From positions 1 through 24,007 of the IMG/VR virus record IMGVR_UViG_3300046007_001374: a stretch of 24,007 bases of DNA. One strand, given 5' to 3'. Position numbers and translations under genes: made by a program. The stretch's first letter is position 1. Every line of letters starts with the position of its first letter. Below are positions 2,847-11,617 of this stretch, piece after piece. Source of the DNA: a virus. The notes under the pieces were generated by a model. It did not search any database. It saw nothing but the letters and a program-made list of their open reading frames with translations, and was not told the DNA's origin.

Positions 2847-4181
2847 ATGGCATTAAATCTATCACGTAATACTCGTGCCTTCGTATCTACAAATGCGAAC
2901 GACACTGGTTTTACTTCAGCCAATACTTGGGAAATCCAAATCATGGCTGGCTATAGCTTAACTCAAGCAACTAGCGAACAAACAATTACTATTAACGAGA
3001 TGGGTAAAACTCCTACTCGTGGTCAACGCTCATTTAACCAAGCGTTAAATCCAGCAGAGTTCTCTTTCACTACCTATATGCGCCCATATATGAATGGTGG
3101 CTCTGTAACTGCTACTGAACGTATGTTGTGGAATGCAATTTCTGGTAACAAACAATTCGTAGATCCAGCATCTTATAAAGCTTTAGCAGCAACTGGTGGC
3201 GCTACCAAGTCGGGTTCAACAGGTACACTTACTTTTGCAGCTTCTCATGGTTTAATCGTTGGTGACGCTATTAACCTAGTTGGTTTCACAGGCGTAGATA
3301 TTTCTTGGAATACTAAAGCGGTAGTAACTACTGTAACTTCTTCTACTGTAGTAGTAGTAAGCTTCCCAGAAGTTGTTCCAGCTACTTCAGCTCCAGCAAC
3401 TACAACAGCTAAAGTAACTACTTCTCAGTGGACTGAGCGTTCTGACAAAGCATTTACAGATTTCTACAACTCAAATGCTCACCAATTAGCTCCATTATAC
3501 TTGATTTTCAAAATCGACTCTGCATGGTATCGTATTACTGGTGCAGCAATTAACCAAGCTACAATCAACTTTGCAATCGACGGCATCGCAATGATTGAAT
3601 GGCAAGGTATGGGTTTTGAGCTATTAGAGTTAGGTTCTACTGGTCAGTCAGAAATTCTAGCTAACGCAGTTGCTCCAAATACTTCTGCTTCTTTCATTGT
3701 TAACAAGTTATCAACTGTTACTATGGAGAAAGGTATTAATGGCGGTGGTACATCATTTGTAGTACCTATTACTGGTGGTTCAGTAACTATTAACAACAAC
3801 CTAACATTCCTGACTCCAGACATTTTAGGTACAGTTAACCGCTCAATCGGTTACTTTACAGGTACTCGCGCAGTTTCAGGTAACTTAACAGCTTACTTAC
3901 GTACTGGTGCAGGTAACAATACAGCAGCTCTATTAGCTGACGTACTAGCTTCCGCGGCTACAGAAGATGAAAACTTCTACAAAGTACAAGTAGAAATTGG
4001 TGGTTTAACTAACGCTACTCGCGTAGAATTGTTAATGCCTGCTGTTCAGTTACAAGTACCAACAGTTTCAGTAGAAGACGTAATCTCTACTGAAATCGGC
4101 TTCACTGCTCAAGGCTATACTGGCGCTGAGTATGATATTGAAAAATCAAACGAATTAGTAGTTTCTTACTACGGCGTTTAA
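2847..4181 (+). CDS. Major tail (tube) protein with inserted beta domain
   Basis: A 444-aa protein forming the stacked rings of the tail tube. The N-terminus (MALNLSRNTRAFVST, followed by TWEIQIMAGYSLTQAT and NPAEFSFTTYMRPY) is a recurrent phage tail-tube/minor-tail pattern. Residues about 112-190 look like an inserted small beta domain (GTLTFAASHGLIVGDAINL, then Val/Thr-rich strands), separated by Ala/Thr-rich linkers. Such domains often decorate the tube surface. The C-terminal half continues with beta strands and ends YDIEKSNELVVSYYGV. A strong AAAGGAGAG ribosome binding site precedes the ATG. Arginine codons are CGT/CGC and ATA is avoided, as in the capsid gene, consistent with a high-copy virion protein. 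It lies just before the frameshifted chaperones and tape measure, the standard place. Confidence 0.75.
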   Translation: MALNLSRNTRAFVSTNANDTGFTSANTWEIQIMAGYSLTQATSEQTITINEMGKTPTRGQRSFNQALNPAEFSFTTYMRPYMNGGSVTATERMLWNAISGNKQFVDPASYKALAATGGATKSGSTGTLTFAASHGLIVGDAINLVGFTGVDISWNTKAVVTTVTSSTVVVVSFPEVVPATSAPATTTAKVTTSQWTERSDKAFTDFYNSNAHQLAPLYLIFKIDSAWYRITGAAINQATINFAIDGIAMIEWQGMGFELLELGSTGQSEILANAVAPNTSASFIVNKLSTVTMEKGINGGGTSFVVPITGGSVTINNNLTFLTPDILGTVNRSIGYFTGTRAVSGNLTAYLRTGAGNNTAALLADVLASAATEDENFYKVQVEIGGLTNATRVELLMPAVQLQVPTVSVEDVISTEIGFTAQGYTGAEYDIEKSNELVVSYYGV

Positions 4182-4189
4182 TTAACTAT

Positions 4190-4212
4190 AAGGGTTGCAT
4201 AACGCAACCCTT
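4190..4212 (+). terminator. Hairpin after tail tube gene
   Basis: AAGGGTTGC / GCAACCCTT is a perfect 9-bp inverted repeat with a 5-base loop (ATAAC), starting nine bases after the tube stop codon. It is followed by GCTTTAAG, so the U-tract is weak. It probably stabilises the tube transcript or gives partial termination. It mirrors the hairpin after the capsid gene. Confidence 0.55.
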
Positions 4213-4239
4213 GCTTTAAGCTAAAATTTAGGATTAACA

Positions 4240-4671
4240 ATGGCTTTATCTATCGGCTCATTAGTAGCAGCAACAAAAGTAATCGAAGTAGATTTTCCAG
4301 GTCTAGACGGTTTTAAAGTATCTTTAAGCTACATTTCTCGTGAGAAATTAGCAGAGTTGCGTAAGAAAGCAACTAAAACAGTATTCAAACAACGCCAGCC
4401 AGTTGAAGAATTGGATAGCGACTTGTTTTTAAAATTATATGCAGAAGCAATCATCAAAGGCTGGAAAGGTCTTACATTAGGTAACTTAAGTGAACTAATG
4501 GTCATTAATGATTTTGCTGCTTCTGAAAAAGACGCTCTAGTAGATTATTCACCAGAAAATGCTTTAGAGTTGTTAAAGAACTCAACAAGTTTCGACGCTT
4601 TTGTAGGCGAAACTATTGCAGACCTAACAAATTTTCAGAGTCCCAGTACTCCGACTGTTACGAAGCAATAA
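4240..4671 (+). CDS. Tail assembly chaperone, short (G-like) form
   Basis: A 143-aa protein in the position of the lambda gpG-type chaperone, between tube and tape measure genes. Such chaperones bind the tape measure protein during tail assembly and are not in the finished virion. The N-terminal half is a beta-rich segment (TKVIEVDFPGLDGFKVSLSY). A helical part with a 'LYAEAIIKGWKGL' stretch follows, typical of this class. The last ten codons (Q-S-P-S-T-P-T-V-T-K-Q) look like a low-complexity tail, as expected for the non-shifted product. A -1 slippery heptamer lies in phase at 4629-4635 near the 3' end. The ribosome binding site is TAGGA. Assignment rests on position plus the frameshift signature. 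Confidence 0.75.
   Translation: MALSIGSLVAATKVIEVDFPGLDGFKVSLSYISREKLAELRKKATKTVFKQRQPVEELDSDLFLKLYAEAIIKGWKGLTLGNLSELMVINDFAASEKDALVDYSPENALELLKNSTSFDAFVGETIADLTNFQSPSTPTVTKQ
4629..4635 (+). other. Programmed -1 ribosomal frameshift site (A AAT TTT)
   Basis: The heptamer A AAT TTT fits X XXY YYZ exactly and is read in the zero frame as ACA AAT TTT CAG of the upstream chaperone gene. The -1 frame is open from at least base 4560 through the stop at 5010-5012. A slip therefore joins 132 residues of the first frame to 125 residues of the second, giving a 257-aa G-T type fusion. The -1 residues between the slip and Met 4701 read SESQYSDCYEAIINYIENS and run on into LIGMNKQQYF, which looks like genuine protein. 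I see no strong stimulatory hairpin close downstream, only short pairings such as GAGT/ACTC. Confidence 0.8.
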
Positions 4672-4700
4672 TTAATTATATAGAAAACAGTCTAATAGGT

Positions 4701-5012
4701 ATGAATAAGCAGCAATACTTTGATATGTGCGAGCAGTTAAATTCAGAACCTAACGAGGCTGAGACGCCCGTGGACTTAGAAGATTTACCTTTTGAAGTTC
4801 AACGGGCTTTTTCTTTATATAAGATATTGCCTGATATAATTGACGGAATGTCTGGGTATTATGGTGGTAAAGATTTAAGCTCATTAATAGTATTAATGCA
4901 GTTAAAAGAATATGAAAATAAAGACATAATTTTTGAGTTTATCATTTTTATAAACTCAGTGTATAAAGAAAAAATGAATAAGAAAAGAGAATCAGTAGTT
5001 AGCAAATCTTAA
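4701..5012 (+). CDS. Tail assembly chaperone second frame (T-like), made by -1 frameshift
   Basis: The reading frame from this ATG encodes 103 aa (MNKQQYFDMCEQLNSEPN and onward), but the coding stretch really begins at the slip site at 4635. The functional product is most likely the fusion of 4240-4635 with 4635-5012. Supporting this, no good ribosome binding site precedes ATG 4701 (only TAATAGGT), and the sequence before the Met continues as plausible helix. T-like domains contact the tape measure or recruit tube subunits during assembly. The motif 'EDLPFEVQRAFSLYKILPD' followed by a conserved-looking Gly-Tyr-Tyr-Gly-Gly is consistent with phage second-frame chaperones. The lysine-rich C-terminus (KEKMNKKRE) is followed 23 bases later by the tape measure start. 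Confidence 0.7.
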   Translation: MNKQQYFDMCEQLNSEPNEAETPVDLEDLPFEVQRAFSLYKILPDIIDGMSGYYGGKDLSSLIVLMQLKEYENKDIIFEFIIFINSVYKEKMNKKRESVVSKS

Positions 5013-5035: not shown

Positions 5036-8000
5036 ATGCCAGAAATTGTACAGAAGACTATAGTGGTTACTGCCGACACTAAAAAATTTGAAGGGCAGAT
5101 ACGGGATTTAAAAAAGACTGTAGATTCTACATCTATTAATTTAGACGTAAATACTAAGTCCACGCAAGCAGAATTAAAAACAGTTACAGGTACTGTAAAG
5201 ACTTTAGAAAATGCATTAAATGATGCTACTAGAGCTAAATCAGGTCTAGAGCGTGGTACGTCAGGTACTGGCGGAGTTAGTAACGCTACTCGTGACTTTT
5301 CACGTCAAGCCCAAGGCTTAGGTGGTTTAGTACACATCTATGCGGCCGTTGCCGCGAACGTTTATGCTACTTCGGAAGCATTTTCAGCTCTTTCAAAAGC
5401 TATGGATGTAGTTTTGATGAAAGAGTCTATGGATAAGTTTGCAGCTAATACAGGGCAAAACATTGCAGCTATCGCAGATAGTATGCAAAAAATTACTGAA
5501 GGTGCTCTAAAGCTACCAGATGCAGTACGCTTAACAAACTTAGGTACTTCTTCAGGCTTAACAGCTAAACAGTTGGAGTTACTAACTATTGGTGCTAAAG
5601 GTGCTTCAGCAGCTTTAGGTCGTGATTTATCAGACTCTATGGACCGTGTAGTTCGTGGTATCGCAAAAATCGAACCAGAGTTACTAGACGAGTTAGGTGT
5701 TACTATTCGTGCTGGCCAAGCTTACAAAGAGTATGCAAAAACTCTAGGTGTAGCTGCTGACGAATTAACAGGTTTCCAACGTACACAAGCTTATGCTAAT
5801 GCAGTTAGCGACCAGTTATTAGAAAAATACGAGTCCATTGCTAAAGAAGTACCAGTTAACGCTTTTACTAAATTAGCAGCAGCAATTAAAACAGCTACCG
5901 ACTCAGCATTAGGTTTTGTAGGTAAAGGGTTAACACCTATTATTGACGGTATGTTAGCAGTACCTAATGCAGTTACTTTAGGTTTAATTGCAGCTACAGC
6001 TAAGCTAACACAACTAGCTTTACCCTCAATTTTATCTTTTAAAGACCGTGCATTAAAAGAAGCACAAGATTTACAAGATGAATACGCCCGTATTCAAAGT
6101 TCTGCTAGTACAGCAAAACTACAACAGTTAATTCCACAAATTCAACCTAAGCAAATTGAATTAGCAAAACAACAGCGTTTAATTATTGACGAGCTACGAG
6201 ATTCTACAGAAGATTTATCTATTTACTCAAATAAGTTAGTAACGATAAGCCAATTAGACGCAGATGCTAAAAAAGATATTAGAACACAAGTAAAAGCGTT
6301 ACAAAAAGATGAACTAGACTTAGCTACTATTGTTAAAGCTAGAACTACTTTAGAAATGAACGCTTTAACAGCTAAACAAGCTGCTCAAGCAAAAATAGAT
6401 GCACATAATGCAGGTAGTTTAAAGTTATCTGAGAAGCAGCTAGCTTTATACCAAGACCAGTTAAAAGCATCTAATGGTGTCCTTACGCAAGTAGCTAATA
6501 TTAACTCAGCCTTAGATGCTAATACAGTTAATATGACTAACATTGCTAAGTTAGAAAAAGAAATTGCCGATACTAAAGCAAGTGTTTCCTTACCTGTAGC
6601 AATGCAGTTAAAACAGCTAGAAGCTCAGCACGCTATTGAAACAGCTAAACGTAAAGCCTTGCTAATTGATATCACGTCAGTTTATGGTGTAATGTCTAAA
6701 GAAGCTAAAGATTATAGCCAGCAAATTAACGCAGCTAACATAGAATATCAAAAACAACGAGCAGAAATAAAAACAGGTACAGCCAGTATAGGTGCAATGG
6801 GCACTTCTTTAGCTTACGTAACTACCGCAGCAACAGCTTTAGGTGTAGCAGTAGGCCGTGCAGCCTCAACATTATCAAGTTTAGCTTTTGGTTTACCAGG
6901 CTTAGCAGTAGGTTTAGCTTTAGCGTTCTACGAGCCTATCGGAAAAGCTCTTGGTATGATTAATAAGTATCAAGATGAAGTCGATACAGCTTCCGAAGGT
7001 TTAAAGAAATTTGCGGAGAGTTCAGAAGAGTATTTTAATAAAGTACAGCGCAAGCTACAAGATGCTCAAGTAGGTACTGAAAATTATGCTAAGATTGTTC
7101 AACAGAATACTACTAACATTGAAGACTTAACTACAGCAATCGAAAAACAATTTGATGCTTTAGCTAAGTATAGAAAAGAGTATGAAAATAGCAACTGGAT
7201 ACAGAAGCTATTTATGGTTGAACCAGAAAAATTAGTAACTAAAGATATTGCAAAAAGTTTACTACAAACTTTGGAGACCGCAGCTACAGATAATGTAGGT
7301 GCTACGGCTATGACTAAGTTAATGAATAGTATTGTTAGCAAAGAGCAGTTAGAGTTACTAATTACTAGCGATGAAAAACTTAAAAAGTTAGAAAAAACTT
7401 TAGCAAATGTAGCGACAGGAAGATACGCACAGCGTCTGGCTTTAGAGCAAGAAATTAAAGCTTTAAAAGAATCTACAGCCGAAGTAGAGAAACAGCTAGA
7501 GAAAAATCCGCAATTAGCCGAGCAATTAGCTAATCTTCGTAAAACAGCTACCAGCTTTTTAACATCTTTTGAAAAACCTATGGAAGCTCTTAGTACCGCT
7601 TTAGATAAGGTAGGTATGTACGCTCCAGAATTAGATGCAAATATTGCTAGACTACAAGAGCCAATCAATACTTTAACTGCTAGTATGCGTGAACAGCTAG
7701 GAGTTATTTCACAATACCAAAAAACAGGTAATGTTAGCGCTTTAGAAGCTGTATTTAAAAATACACAAGGCTATATTGAGCAAACAATACCAAAAGCCAG
7801 AGAGTTAATCGAAGACCTTATTAAAGGTGGTAAATTTAAAGATGGACAAGGTGAAGCAGCTTTAGCAGCTCTAGATGCTAATATCAACCAATTAAAAGAT
7901 ATTCTAAAACGTAGCGCAGAACTAGACTTAGTGTTAAGTAATGCAAGACTACCAGACTCTATTAGAGAGAAAGCGCTAAAACAAAAAGCAGACTTAGCCG

Positions 8001-11000
8001 ACCAGCTAAGAGACCCTTTAGCAGCTGCAGGCGGTATTACAACAGGTACTATTGCAGGCGCTAGCGACAAAGCTAATAAATTCAACCAAGAAAAAGACCA
8101 GTATCAAGCGCTATTAGACCAAGCCAGATTATTTTTAGAATTAGAAAAATCAGCAGCTGATGTACTTAAAGAGCGCATTGACTTAAATGCTAAACTAGGT
8201 ATCTTATCTGAAGAAGAACTCTTTAGTGGTTATCAGAAAGCAGCTTTATCTGAACAAGCAGCTCAATATGAGCTAACTAAACTCACTATAGCTAAGCAAG
8301 CACAAGATGCAACTAAAAATGGTTTATCCTACGATAAATCAAGAGCATTAGCTTTAGCTGAACAAACTAACCAATTAAAAGTTCAATCAATTGAATTATC
8401 TACTGCAGAACTAAAAGCAAATGCAGCTTTAACAGCTTCACGTCAAGATTTAGAATTAAAACGTGAAACCCTACGAGTAGCAAAAGATTATGCTAAGCTA
8501 GCAGCTCAATTTGGCGGTATGTCTACTGCGGAAGCAGCCAGTATCGAGATTCAAGCTGAAATGTTAGAGATGCAGTCTCAGCGTAATAAAACACAAGAGC
8601 AGTTAAACTCTCTAAAAGTAAATGAAGCTAAGTTAAGTTTTGATGACTTCCAAAATGCAATCAACAAACAACAATACTTAGAACGCTCTTTAGAGCTACA
8701 AGATGCTAACTATCAGCTATATTTAAAAATAGCTCCATTACAACAGCAAGCTAATATTGCTCAACAACAATATAATAATTACTTAAATGCTTACAACTCA
8801 GTATTAGGTACTATTTACCAAGCAGAAGCAAACATTACGTTACTAAAAGAAAAACAAAATGCGTACATTGAAGCCCAAGTAGCTTTAATCAATGCTTCTA
8901 CTAATAAATCACCTGAAGAAAAACGCTTAGAAACTATCGCTTTAATTAGTCAAGAATATGACAAGTTAAAAGCTAAAGAGTTAGACTTTGGTATTAACAT
9001 TAGTTCCTCTGATTCTATAGTATCAGGTATGCAATCTGCTATTAAGTCCGCTGACCAACTGCGTGTTATTTTTGAGAACCAAGTATTAGCTCAAGAAGAA
9101 CTAGCTAAACGTATGGATGCCACAGGTGCTAGTGAAAAGACACGAGCTAAAGAGTTATCTAAATTAAATAAACAAAACTTTAGAGATAATTTAGCGGGTT
9201 ATTCATCTCTAGCAGGAGCAGCAGCTTCTTTATTTGATAGAGAAAGTGCTCAAGCTAAAGCCTTGTACGATTTAGAGAAAATGTTAGCAATCGCTACTTT
9301 AGCTATGGATGCTCAAAAATTAGCATCTAAATTAGGGTTAATTGGTGCTGAGCAAGCTCACGCAGCAGCAGCTGGTACAACAGCAGTACTTACTCAAGGT
9401 GCTGGGGACCCTTATACAGCCTGGCCACGTATCGCAGCAATGACAGCTGTAGTAGCAGGCTTACTAGCAGGTATTGGTACTAACTTAACAAGCAGTTCAG
9501 TAACTGTAGCATCAGGAGCTTTAGGTGGCAGTGGCGCAGAGTCGCCAGTAGGAAGTACTGAATCAAGTAAATCACTTAGTGCTGCAGAAACTTATCTAAC
9601 AGATATTGAAGCAGACCAGTATAGAGAGCTACGTAAAATCTTTACAGAGATGCAAAATCTTAATAGTAATATTACAGGTTTTGTAACAGCTTTATATACT
9701 TCAGGAGATATTCGTAGTATCGGAGCTAACCCTGTAGGAGTTGGATTTAAAGATAATCCTGTGGCAGAAAGCTTAAGAAATTTAGGTGATAGCTTTAATA
9801 GTATCCCAGTGGTTGGTAATATACTATCAGGTGTTGGTAACTTTATTGGTAATGCAATTAGTTCCGTATTTGGCGGTGGTAGTAGTACTAGCGTAACAGG
9901 TTCTGGTTTATTTATGCCTAACTTTACTCTAGGTTCTGGTGTAGATTTAAAAAGCTATACGGATTACGTTAAAAAGACTGACGGTGGCTGGTTTGGGAGT
10001 TCCAGAACAGATTACTATAGCACATACGCAGATATCTCTGGTCAATCGGAAGCAGCCTTCCAAGCAGTATTTACTAACCTGAGAGAAGGTATCTTAAGTA
10101 TTGGTGACGCTTTAAATAGAAATATTGAAAGCCAAGTAAACTCATTTACAATATCAATCGGTAAGATCGCCACATCAGGTAAGACTGGTGCAGAAATCGA
10201 ACAAGCCCTACAAGAGGCAATTAGTACACAATCAGATAAATTAGCTTATGCTATATTCCCAGATTTAGTTACTAAATACGCTAAGTTAAATGAAGGTTAC
10301 TTTGAAACGCTGATCCGTTTAGTAGCAGATAAAGCTATTGTAGAATCTACTTTTGGTGACATGGGTTTAATATTAAGTACTAATGCCGATATTATAAACA
10401 TATCACAGAACTTAGTTAAATTCAGTGGTTCAATTTCTGACTTTGTATCTAATAGTGGTGACTTCGTATCTAAGTTTTATAGCGACGAACAAAAACTTAG
10501 TATTACAACTAGAAAGGTTAATGACCTATTTGCTTCGTTAAATTTAACTTTACCTACTTCAGCTCAGTCTTTAGTAGATATAGTTCATTCTTTAGATTTA
10601 ACTACGGAGTCAGGTCAGCAAGCATTTGTAAGTATTACTAAAGCTTCCGAAGTGCTAGACGAATACTATAGTAGTTTAGAATCTGCATCAGATAAGTTAA
10701 TAGAGACCGCAGATTCTGGATTGACAGCGTTACAGAAGGCTATAGATGCGGAAAAGAAACTGTTAAATGATGCTTATAATGAGCGAGTTGATAGTTTAAA
10801 TGCAGAGAAAAAAGCTTTAACTGATACTAAAACAGCAGCGGATGCGTTATCTAAATCACTGAAATCAGCTTATGATAGTATATTTAAGTCCATTGCAGAC
10901 CCTGTAGCTTCATATAAGCAAGCACAAGCTAGCTTAGTGAATTTAGCTTCTTCTGGTAGCTTACCAGAACAAGAGTACCTAAATAGTCTTCTAAGTTCAG

Positions 11001-11617
11001 CTACATCAAATACTACTAAGTATTATAGTACTTTCGAAGATTATGCAAGAGACCAAGCAGTAACAGGTAAAGCAATATCAGATTTGCTAGGATTATCTGA
11101 TAACCGACTAAGCACTGCTGAAGCCCAATTACTAGCTACAGAGACTACGTTAACTACATTAAAAGAAACTTTAGATAACGATATAGCAGCGCTAGATGCT
11201 ACAATTGACTACTATGAGCGCCAGCTAGATGCATTGAAAGGTATTGATAACTCAGTACTAAGCGTACAAGCTGCAGTAGTAAACCTAGAGTCTTATATCG
11301 CAGCAGCATCTATGTCGGTGTTCGGTACACCTATTCTACCTTCTTTTGATGTTGGCACAAACTACGTATCGCAAGATATGGTAGCGCAAATTCATAAAGG
11401 CGAGATGATTGTACCTGCTAAGTTTAACCCAGCGACTTCAGGATTGCAAGTTAATCAAGCGCTTCTAGAAGAAATAAAAGCTTTACGTCAAGAAGTATCA
11501 GAACTAAAAGCGCAGGATAGACAGATTGGTATTCAACTAATTAAAGCTAATGTTAAAACAGCAGACTATATAGAGCAGTGGGATACTACTGGATTAAAAG
11601 TAGAGGTAATGCCATAA
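5036..11617 (+). CDS. Tape measure protein (tail length determinant)
   Basis: A 2193-aa protein that sets tail length and is ejected with the DNA. The N-terminus is a beta/helical start (VVTADTKKFEGQIRDLKKTV), followed by long helices rich in Ala, Gln, Lys and Glu (about residues 350-580 and 860-1400), as expected for an extended coiled-coil scaffold. A hydrophobic region at about 586-645 (SLAFGLPGLAVGLALAFYEP) and another at about 1440-1485 (ending AAMTAVVAGLLAGIGTNL) could enter the inner membrane during DNA delivery. Near residue 2103 the motif SFDVGTNYVSQDMVAQIHKG then EMIVPAKF is the classic C-terminal 'FDxGTxxVxxDMxAxIHxGExxVPA' signature. A final coiled-coil helix (LLEEIKALRQEVSELKAQ) ends the protein. 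At the usual 0.15 nm per residue the length predicts a tail of roughly 330 nm, if unprocessed. Confidence 0.93.
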   Translation: MPEIVQKTIVVTADTKKFEGQIRDLKKTVDSTSINLDVNTKSTQAELKTVTGTVKTLENALNDATRAKSGLERGTSGTGGVSNATRDFSRQAQGLGGLVHIYAAVAANVYATSEAFSALSKAMDVVLMKESMDKFAANTGQNIAAIADSMQKITEGALKLPDAVRLTNLGTSSGLTAKQLELLTIGAKGASAALGRDLSDSMDRVVRGIAKIEPELLDELGVTIRAGQAYKEYAKTLGVAADELTGFQRTQAYANAVSDQLLEKYESIAKEVPVNAFTKLAAAIKTATDSALGFVGKGLTPIIDGMLAVPNAVTLGLIAATAKLTQLALPSILSFKDRALKEAQDLQDEYARIQSSASTAKLQQLIPQIQPKQIELAKQQRLIIDELRDSTEDLSIYSNKLVTISQLDADAKKDIRTQVKALQKDELDLATIVKARTTLEMNALTAKQAAQAKIDAHNAGSLKLSEKQLALYQDQLKASNGVLTQVANINSALDANTVNMTNIAKLEKEIADTKASVSLPVAMQLKQLEAQHAIETAKRKALLIDITSVYGVMSKEAKDYSQQINAANIEYQKQRAEIKTGTASIGAMGTSLAYVTTAATALGVAVGRAASTLSSLAFGLPGLAVGLALAFYEPIGKALGMINKYQDEVDTASEGLKKFAESSEEYFNKVQRKLQDAQVGTENYAKIVQQNTTNIEDLTTAIEKQFDALAKYRKEYENSNWIQKLFMVEPEKLVTKDIAKSLLQTLETAATDNVGATAMTKLMNSIVSKEQLELLITSDEKLKKLEKTLANVATGRYAQRLALEQEIKALKESTAEVEKQLEKNPQLAEQLANLRKTATSFLTSFEKPMEALSTALDKVGMYAPELDANIARLQEPINTLTASMREQLGVISQYQKTGNVSALEAVFKNTQGYIEQTIPKARELIEDLIKGGKFKDGQGEAALAALDANINQLKDILKRSAELDLVLSNARLPDSIREKALKQKADLADQLRDPLAAAGGITTGTIAGASDKANKFNQEKDQYQALLDQARLFLELEKSAADVLKERIDLNAKLGILSEEELFSGYQKAALSEQAAQYELTKLTIAKQAQDATKNGLSYDKSRALALAEQTNQLKVQSIELSTAELKANAALTASRQDLELKRETLRVAKDYAKLAAQFGGMSTAEAASIEIQAEMLEMQSQRNKTQEQLNSLKVNEAKLSFDDFQNAINKQQYLERSLELQDANYQLYLKIAPLQQQANIAQQQYNNYLNAYNSVLGTIYQAEANITLLKEKQNAYIEAQVALINASTNKSPEEKRLETIALISQEYDKLKAKELDFGINISSSDSIVSGMQSAIKSADQLRVIFENQVLAQEELAKRMDATGASEKTRAKELSKLNKQNFRDNLAGYSSLAGAAASLFDRESAQAKALYDLEKMLAIATLAMDAQKLASKLGLIGAEQAHAAAAGTTAVLTQGAGDPYTAWPRIAAMTAVVAGLLAGIGTNLTSSSVTVASGALGGSGAESPVGSTESSKSLSAAETYLTDIEADQYRELRKIFTEMQNLNSNITGFVTALYTSGDIRSIGANPVGVGFKDNPVAESLRNLGDSFNSIPVVGNILSGVGNFIGNAISSVFGGGSSTSVTGSGLFMPNFTLGSGVDLKSYTDYVKKTDGGWFGSSRTDYYSTYADISGQSEAAFQAVFTNLREGILSIGDALNRNIESQVNSFTISIGKIATSGKTGAEIEQALQEAISTQSDKLAYAIFPDLVTKYAKLNEGYFETLIRLVADKAIVESTFGDMGLILSTNADIINISQNLVKFSGSISDFVSNSGDFVSKFYSDEQKLSITTRKVNDLFASLNLTLPTSAQSLVDIVHSLDLTTESGQQAFVSITKASEVLDEYYSSLESASDKLIETADSGLTALQKAIDAEKKLLNDAYNERVDSLNAEKKALTDTKTAADALSKSLKSAYDSIFKSIADPVASYKQAQASLVNLASSGSLPEQEYLNSLLSSATSNTTKYYSTFEDYARDQAVTGKAISDLLGLSDNRLSTAEAQLLATETTLTTLKETLDNDIAALDATIDYYERQLDALKGIDNSVLSVQAAVVNLESYIAAASMSVFGTPILPSFDVGTNYVSQDMVAQIHKGEMIVPAKFNPATSGLQVNQALLEEIKALRQEVSELKAQDRQIGIQLIKANVKTADYIEQWDTTGLKVEVMP

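Follow-up and report, generated by a model that had tools for sequence, protein, structure and literature searches.

A predicted −1 frameshift fuses the tail assembly chaperones of an uncultured T5-like phage and probably replaced a +1 shift predicted in its relatives

Among the closest known counterparts of the locus described here is the G/GT pair of tail chaperones of phage lambda, whose slippery heptamer, treated by Levin 1993 and Xu 2004, is said to be G_GGA_AAG. The roles of the lambda chaperones have been summarized, and long-tailed phages generally have chaperones fused by a −1 shift (PMC5009743). Caulobacter phages phiCbK (AAAAAAC) and Colossus (GGGAAAC) have −1 fused pre-tape measure chaperones (PMC3556154). 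Shifts in the +1 direction have been described at a different motif: influenza A PA-X is made by a demonstrated +1 shift at UCC_UUU_CGU (PMC3498833), the +1 motif of plant amalgaviruses is UUU_CGN (PMC5052127), and a +1 site at TTT-CGC in the tail chaperone overlap of HF1-group haloviruses was proposed by its authors (PMC7230728). The genome paper of phage Sugarland states that, similar to T5, a frameshift signal was not predicted (PMC6256483).

The window analysed here is one whole strand of 24 kb, positions 1 to 24,007 of IMG/VR virus record IMGVR_UViG_3300046007_001374, and derives from a T5-like siphovirus, with head, tail and distal genes represented. Matches to tail or connector families of PHROG were obtained for the terminator, the major tail protein (2847..4181, + strand; phrog_3575, E 4.3e-67), two small chaperone ORFs and the tape measure protein (5036..11617, + strand; 2193 aa; phrog_3779, tail length tape measure protein, E 2e-52). 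The chaperone ORFs, which immediately precede the tape measure gene, are TAC1 (tail assembly chaperone 1, gpG-like; 4240..4671, + strand; phrog_313, E 1.3e-19), the zero-frame product of 143 aa, and TAC2 (gpT-like; 4635..5012, + strand; phrog_3914, tail assembly chaperone, E 1.4e-14), an extension domain of 125 aa in the −1 frame that overlaps TAC1. Matches to TAC1 by tblastn were found in 902 phage records and matches to the tape measure protein in about 900, nearly all T5-like in both cases. The cultured T5-like records examined have a further gene, annotated as minor tail or base plate tail tube, between those of the major tail protein and TAC1; the window, at 4181-4240, lacks it.

As in lambda, two small genes lie between the major tail and tape measure genes with the second in the −1 frame, an X_XXY_YYZ heptamer lies in their overlap, and a predicted fusion takes the place of the second gene. 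Unlike those of lambda, the chaperones of the window belong to T5-like families (phrog_313 and phrog_3914), and the heptamer is A_AAT_TTT, or G_GGA_AAC in most of the clade to which the window belongs, rather than G_GGA_AAG; the heptamer of Colossus is the same as that of most of this clade. The window site is an ordinary case of the lambda G/GT type, and we give a probability of roughly 0.93 to the reading that a programmed −1 frameshift of this type makes a TAC1-TAC2 fusion, with the slip, its efficiency and the chaperone roles predicted from sequence and from lambda. Most ribosomes would translate TAC1 to its stop at 4671 and release the 143-aa protein, whereas a minority would slip by −1 on A_AAU_UUU, with tRNA-Asn on AAU and tRNA-Phe on UUU re-pairing with AAA and UUU, and would proceed in the −1 frame to produce the 257-aa fusion (gpGT-like; 4240-4635, then 4635-5012, + strand). 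By analogy with lambda, many copies of TAC1 and few of the fusion would coat their expected client, the tape measure protein, and the extension of the fusion would recruit the major tail protein, the expected partner of the T domain.

Examination of the reading frames confirmed what a preliminary description of this DNA had observed, and all of its coordinates are correct. The zero frame of TAC1 reads ...GAC CTA ACA AAT TTT CAG AGT..., with the P-site codon AAT at 4630-4632 and the A-site codon TTT at 4633-4635, and its register places the heptamer in the zero frame at 4629..4635 (+ strand), as had been claimed. The −1 frame, said to be open to 5012, has its last stop within TAC1 at 4524 (TGA) and is open from there to the TAA at 5010-5012, and the proposed 257-aa fusion follows by sequence arithmetic as 132 + 125 aa with the junction ...T-N-F-S-E-S-Q-Y-S-D.... 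Canonical in-frame heptamers make up 0.50% of codons across the genes of the window, and the 49-codon landing zone would contain one or more by chance with a probability of about 0.22. Because of this value, comparison with relatives was needed; the window sequence by itself is suggestive, with chance a possible explanation, and it is the homologue comparison that decides. The interpretation put forward in the preliminary description, including all three of its inferences, is supported by that comparison.

Homologues were collected from IMG/VR with TAC1 and its profiles, together with annotated T5-like records, and removal of duplicates and truncated loci left 93 distinct loci with TAC2 in the −1 frame and 89 with TAC2 in the +1 frame. 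The Phe codon at 4633-4635 aligned with Phe in all 237 loci covering the site. A search for the same heptamer in relatives, which the preliminary description had proposed as a check, found 91 of the 93 −1-frame homologues to have a canonical heptamer at this codon (70 G_GGA_AAC, 17 A_AAT_TTT and 4 A_AAT_TTC), compared with 143 of 20,138 codons (0.71% per codon) elsewhere in TAC1, these counts being non-independent trials on related sequences. The two exceptions, L015 (GCT TTT) and L176 (GCT AAT TTT), both retain U_UUU. At the A_AAT_TTY sites, the preceding codon is ACA, TCA, GCA, GAA or CAA, its third base always A. Both of the −1-frame loci fetched later from genome bins (L248 and L249) also have a canonical heptamer at the slip codon, within GAA AAT TTT. 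Among the 89 +1-frame homologues a canonical heptamer was found in four, which hold A_AAT_TTT by coincidence (GAA AAT TTT CGT) and provide a fair control for the motif alone. The zero-frame tail past the Phe is 0 to 11 residues long in the −1 class and 1 to 29 in the +1 class.

The residues between the slip and ATG 4701, which had been called protein-like, proved to be conserved as protein. These 22 transframe codons (SESQYSDCYEAIINYIENSLIG; 4635..4700, + strand), read only after a −1 shift, correspond to a slip-to-Met stretch of 22 residues in 91/93 homologues of the −1 class and 76/89 of the +1 class. Past the TAC1 stop, the ratio of nonsynonymous to synonymous changes in the trans-frame was 0.158 (−1 class) and 0.185 (+1 class) versus 1.36 and 5.4 in shifted control frames, as estimated by a crude pairwise count on related sequences and not a fitted model. 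An AlphaFold2 model of the 125-aa extension, built with 60 homologues whose rows were IMG/VR loci only, reached a pLDDT of 94.1 and a pTM of 0.84, and included a helix at residues 6-20, before Met 4701, with a pLDDT of about 96. The 22 residues are, judged by these counts and this model, under purifying selection and predicted to fold as part of the TAC2 domain. The best BFVD matches of the model include T5-like proteins named 'tape measure chaperone', and weaker viral structure matches were to chaperones of other phages, e.g. CcrColossus and Loki; the match of the Colossus protein to the TAC2 fold was weak (TM 0.64, E 0.025), and phiCbK and Colossus were not among the relatives retrieved by sequence. 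Comparison of the T-domain model with solved structures gave zero matches.

The principal alternative, which we consider improbable, is that TAC2 is an independent gene whose translation starts at ATG 4701, 29 nt past the TAC1 stop, through re-initiation or coupling, and that the heptamer arose by chance. This Met is the annotated start of TAC2 in public records such as that of T5, an ATG occupies the position in 83/93 (−1 class) and 81/89 (+1 class) homologues, and a chance heptamer in the overlap has a probability of about 22% in the window alone. However, ATG 4701 lacks a good ribosome binding site, as had been claimed: its anti-SD duplex is +0.2 kcal/mol, compared with −4.0 for TAC1 (4240), −5.3 for the tape measure gene (5036) and −8.7 kcal/mol for the major tail gene (2847). 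The same is true of the relatives, in which the median SD energy at the internal start (0.0 in the −1 class and −0.9 in the +1 class) is no better than at random positions (−1.0), whereas that of TAC1 starts is −5.8. The position is not ATG in 10 of the 93 −1-class homologues (one GTG, nine with no common start codon) and 8 of the 89 in the +1 class, 17 of these 18 lacking ATG, GTG and TTG, as do L248 and L249. Furthermore, coding selection and constant length reach 22 codons upstream of the Met, past the TAC1 stop, and the helix before the Met is part of the modelled fold. The ATG at 4701..4703 (+ strand), part of the conserved motif GMTK..Y, is better read as encoding a conserved Met within the T domain than as a start, in agreement with the preliminary description, and TAC2 is predicted to be without independent initiation. 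It is even less probable that the −1 frame is reached by transcriptional rather than ribosomal slippage on AAAUUUU, which would result in the same protein, since the runs are only A3 and T4 in the window and G3A3 in the G_GGA_AAC relatives, and the codon register is kept, as required by tandem tRNA slippage but not by polymerase slippage.

With respect to stimulation of the −1 frameshift, a synonymous-constraint scan of 129 TAC1 columns in the −1 class placed codons −2 (1.45 bits), −3 (1.12) and −7 (0.90) at the top, the mean being 0.21 bits. Codons −2 and −3, the two most constrained columns, are the heptamer, and codon −7 is CAG, mostly before GTA, so that at the G_GGA_AAC sites an SD-like AGGU precedes the GGA P codon by about 11 nt, where a bacterial −1 stimulator is commonly located. 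The SD-like CAG GTA of many relatives is absent from the window, and folding gave no sign of a strong 3' hairpin, as the preliminary description had noted (z −1.0 for 4636-4700 and −0.3 for 4629-4720); because the element is missing and the hairpin insignificant, slip efficiency in the window may be low. A universal 3' stimulatory hairpin was rejected for the −1 class (mean z −0.63). Strong predicted stems lie a few bases 3' of the slip site in L059, L069, L070, L188, L191 and L220 and are possible lineage-specific 3' stimulators.

The cultured relatives examined, which were not part of the account in the preliminary description, showed a +1 arrangement at the same codon. TTT CGN occurs at the homologous Phe codon in 89/89 homologues of the +1 class, the codon after TTT being CGT, CGC or CGA, and this Phe is never TTC, although TTC encodes 24% of the Phe residues in the rest of the gene. 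Candidate PA-X-type +1 sites, defined by zero-frame TTT CGN and TAC2 open in the +1 frame, were found in L006 (7055-7459, − strand), L002, L003, L005, L007-L014 and L065-L158. T5-like Demerecviridae (T5 AY543070, Erwinia KEY, Vibrio phi 3, Shivani and others) have TAC1 and TAC2 homologous to those of the window and share with it the predicted shift site at the same Phe codon and mostly the same transframe length, but differ in having TAC2 in the +1 frame and an invariant UUU_CGN. T5 and other +1-class T5-like phages appear, from this conservation, to slip +1 at UUU_CGN. The annotation of T5 TAC2 (T5.142) begins at the internal Met, so the first 22 or so residues are missing from it.

PA-X and the amalgaviruses share the motif of these +1-class relatives, not of the window, and are eukaryotic viruses. 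The HF1-group haloviruses share both the +1 arrangement and the motif in a tail chaperone pair, but they are archaeal myoviruses, the prediction was made from six genomes, and a direction switch was not described. A −2 shift in the +1 class was judged unlikely because the codons before UUU vary (AAC, AAT, CAC, ACT, TCT, GGG, TTG, CGA) while UUU_C is invariant. In the Shivani record both frames are joined as one CDS, and because its span of 832 and its 277-aa model fit two-base reuse, the join apparently reuses two bases (−2) instead of skipping one (+1); the Shivani paper does not discuss the joining of frames.

In the marine +1 subclade (L065-L158), synonymous constraint is strong at codons −10, −8, −7 and −6 within CUC AAY GAG GUA GUC, in a stretch that precedes TTT CGN by about 18 to 30 nt. 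GAG is present in 75/76 and GTC in 65/76 members, although GTC is rare for Val in TAC1, and an SD-like GAGGU is placed about 19 nt before the shift codon. In Aeromonas phages TS3 and Akh-2 (L243 and L244, Shenzhenvirus), the conserved tape measure frame contains in-frame TAG, without TAA or TGA, and the annotated ORFs are shattered. TAG looks recoded in these two phages, perhaps to Gln, and with TAG so read, a +1 shift at TTT CGA would again connect their TAC1 and TAC2; a search of the first 40 kb of Akh-2 yielded no tRNA.

That the window also uses the T5-like +1 site, or a −2 shift, with A_AAT_TTT as a relic is barely credible, for although the Phe codon is the same and the four coincidental +1-class loci hold both motifs, TAC2 of the window is in the −1 frame, a +1 shift after TTT meets a stop within the overlap and not TAC2, the codon after TTT is CAG and is never CGN in the −1 class, and the frames refute this reading unless the contig has an indel, which more than 90 other −1-frame loci oppose.

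Phylogenetic analysis of the chaperones, from which the shift-site columns were excluded, placed the −1 class on one side of a single branch (support 99 in FastTree with 182 rows and 100/99 in IQ-TREE with 63 rows), and the −1/+1 split was present in 100% of 200 bootstrap trees. As the −1 loci form one clade (support 100/99), the shift direction would have changed once, at a fixed codon. Under midpoint rooting without an outgroup, the −1 class is nested among +1 lineages, which makes a change from +1 to −1 the likelier direction. The two frames are one base apart, and thus a single-base indel in the overlap together with a new slip site would suffice. The earliest −1 branches use A_AAT_TTT, as does the window, and the heptamer type switched at least five times within the clade between A_AAT_TTY and G_GGA_AAC, always to the other canonical site. 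The tape measure and chaperone trees are nearly, not fully, concordant; since the former needs three class changes and the latter one, cassette shuffling between the classes appears limited. No cultured phage of the −1 clade was seen among INPHARED records, in which the best identity was about 42%.

It is probable, in sum, that T5-like phages including T5 fuse their chaperones by a +1 shift at the invariant UUU_CGN and that in one uncultured clade, that of the window, a −1 shift took its place a single time, at the same Asn-Phe codon pair and on canonical heptamers, a natural switch of direction in which the fusion was conserved. The window site would then serve, by a −1 shift, the same fusion for which cultured T5-like phages appear to use +1 at UUU_CGN. 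Both the direction switch and the T5 +1 site look new; our literature search found no paper describing the latter, which is no proof of absence.

These results suggest that T5, a model phage, has an invariant candidate +1 site despite the stated absence of a predicted signal (PMC6256483). UUU_CGN-type sites have been demonstrated in influenza and, as far as we found, only proposed for prokaryotic viruses. In T5-like records that begin TAC2 at the internal Met, the start would be corrected. The −1 clade amounts to a natural experiment, with the same protein and the same codon but the opposite slip, suggesting that what the phage keeps is the fusion, and probably the ratio, while direction, motif and stimulator may change.
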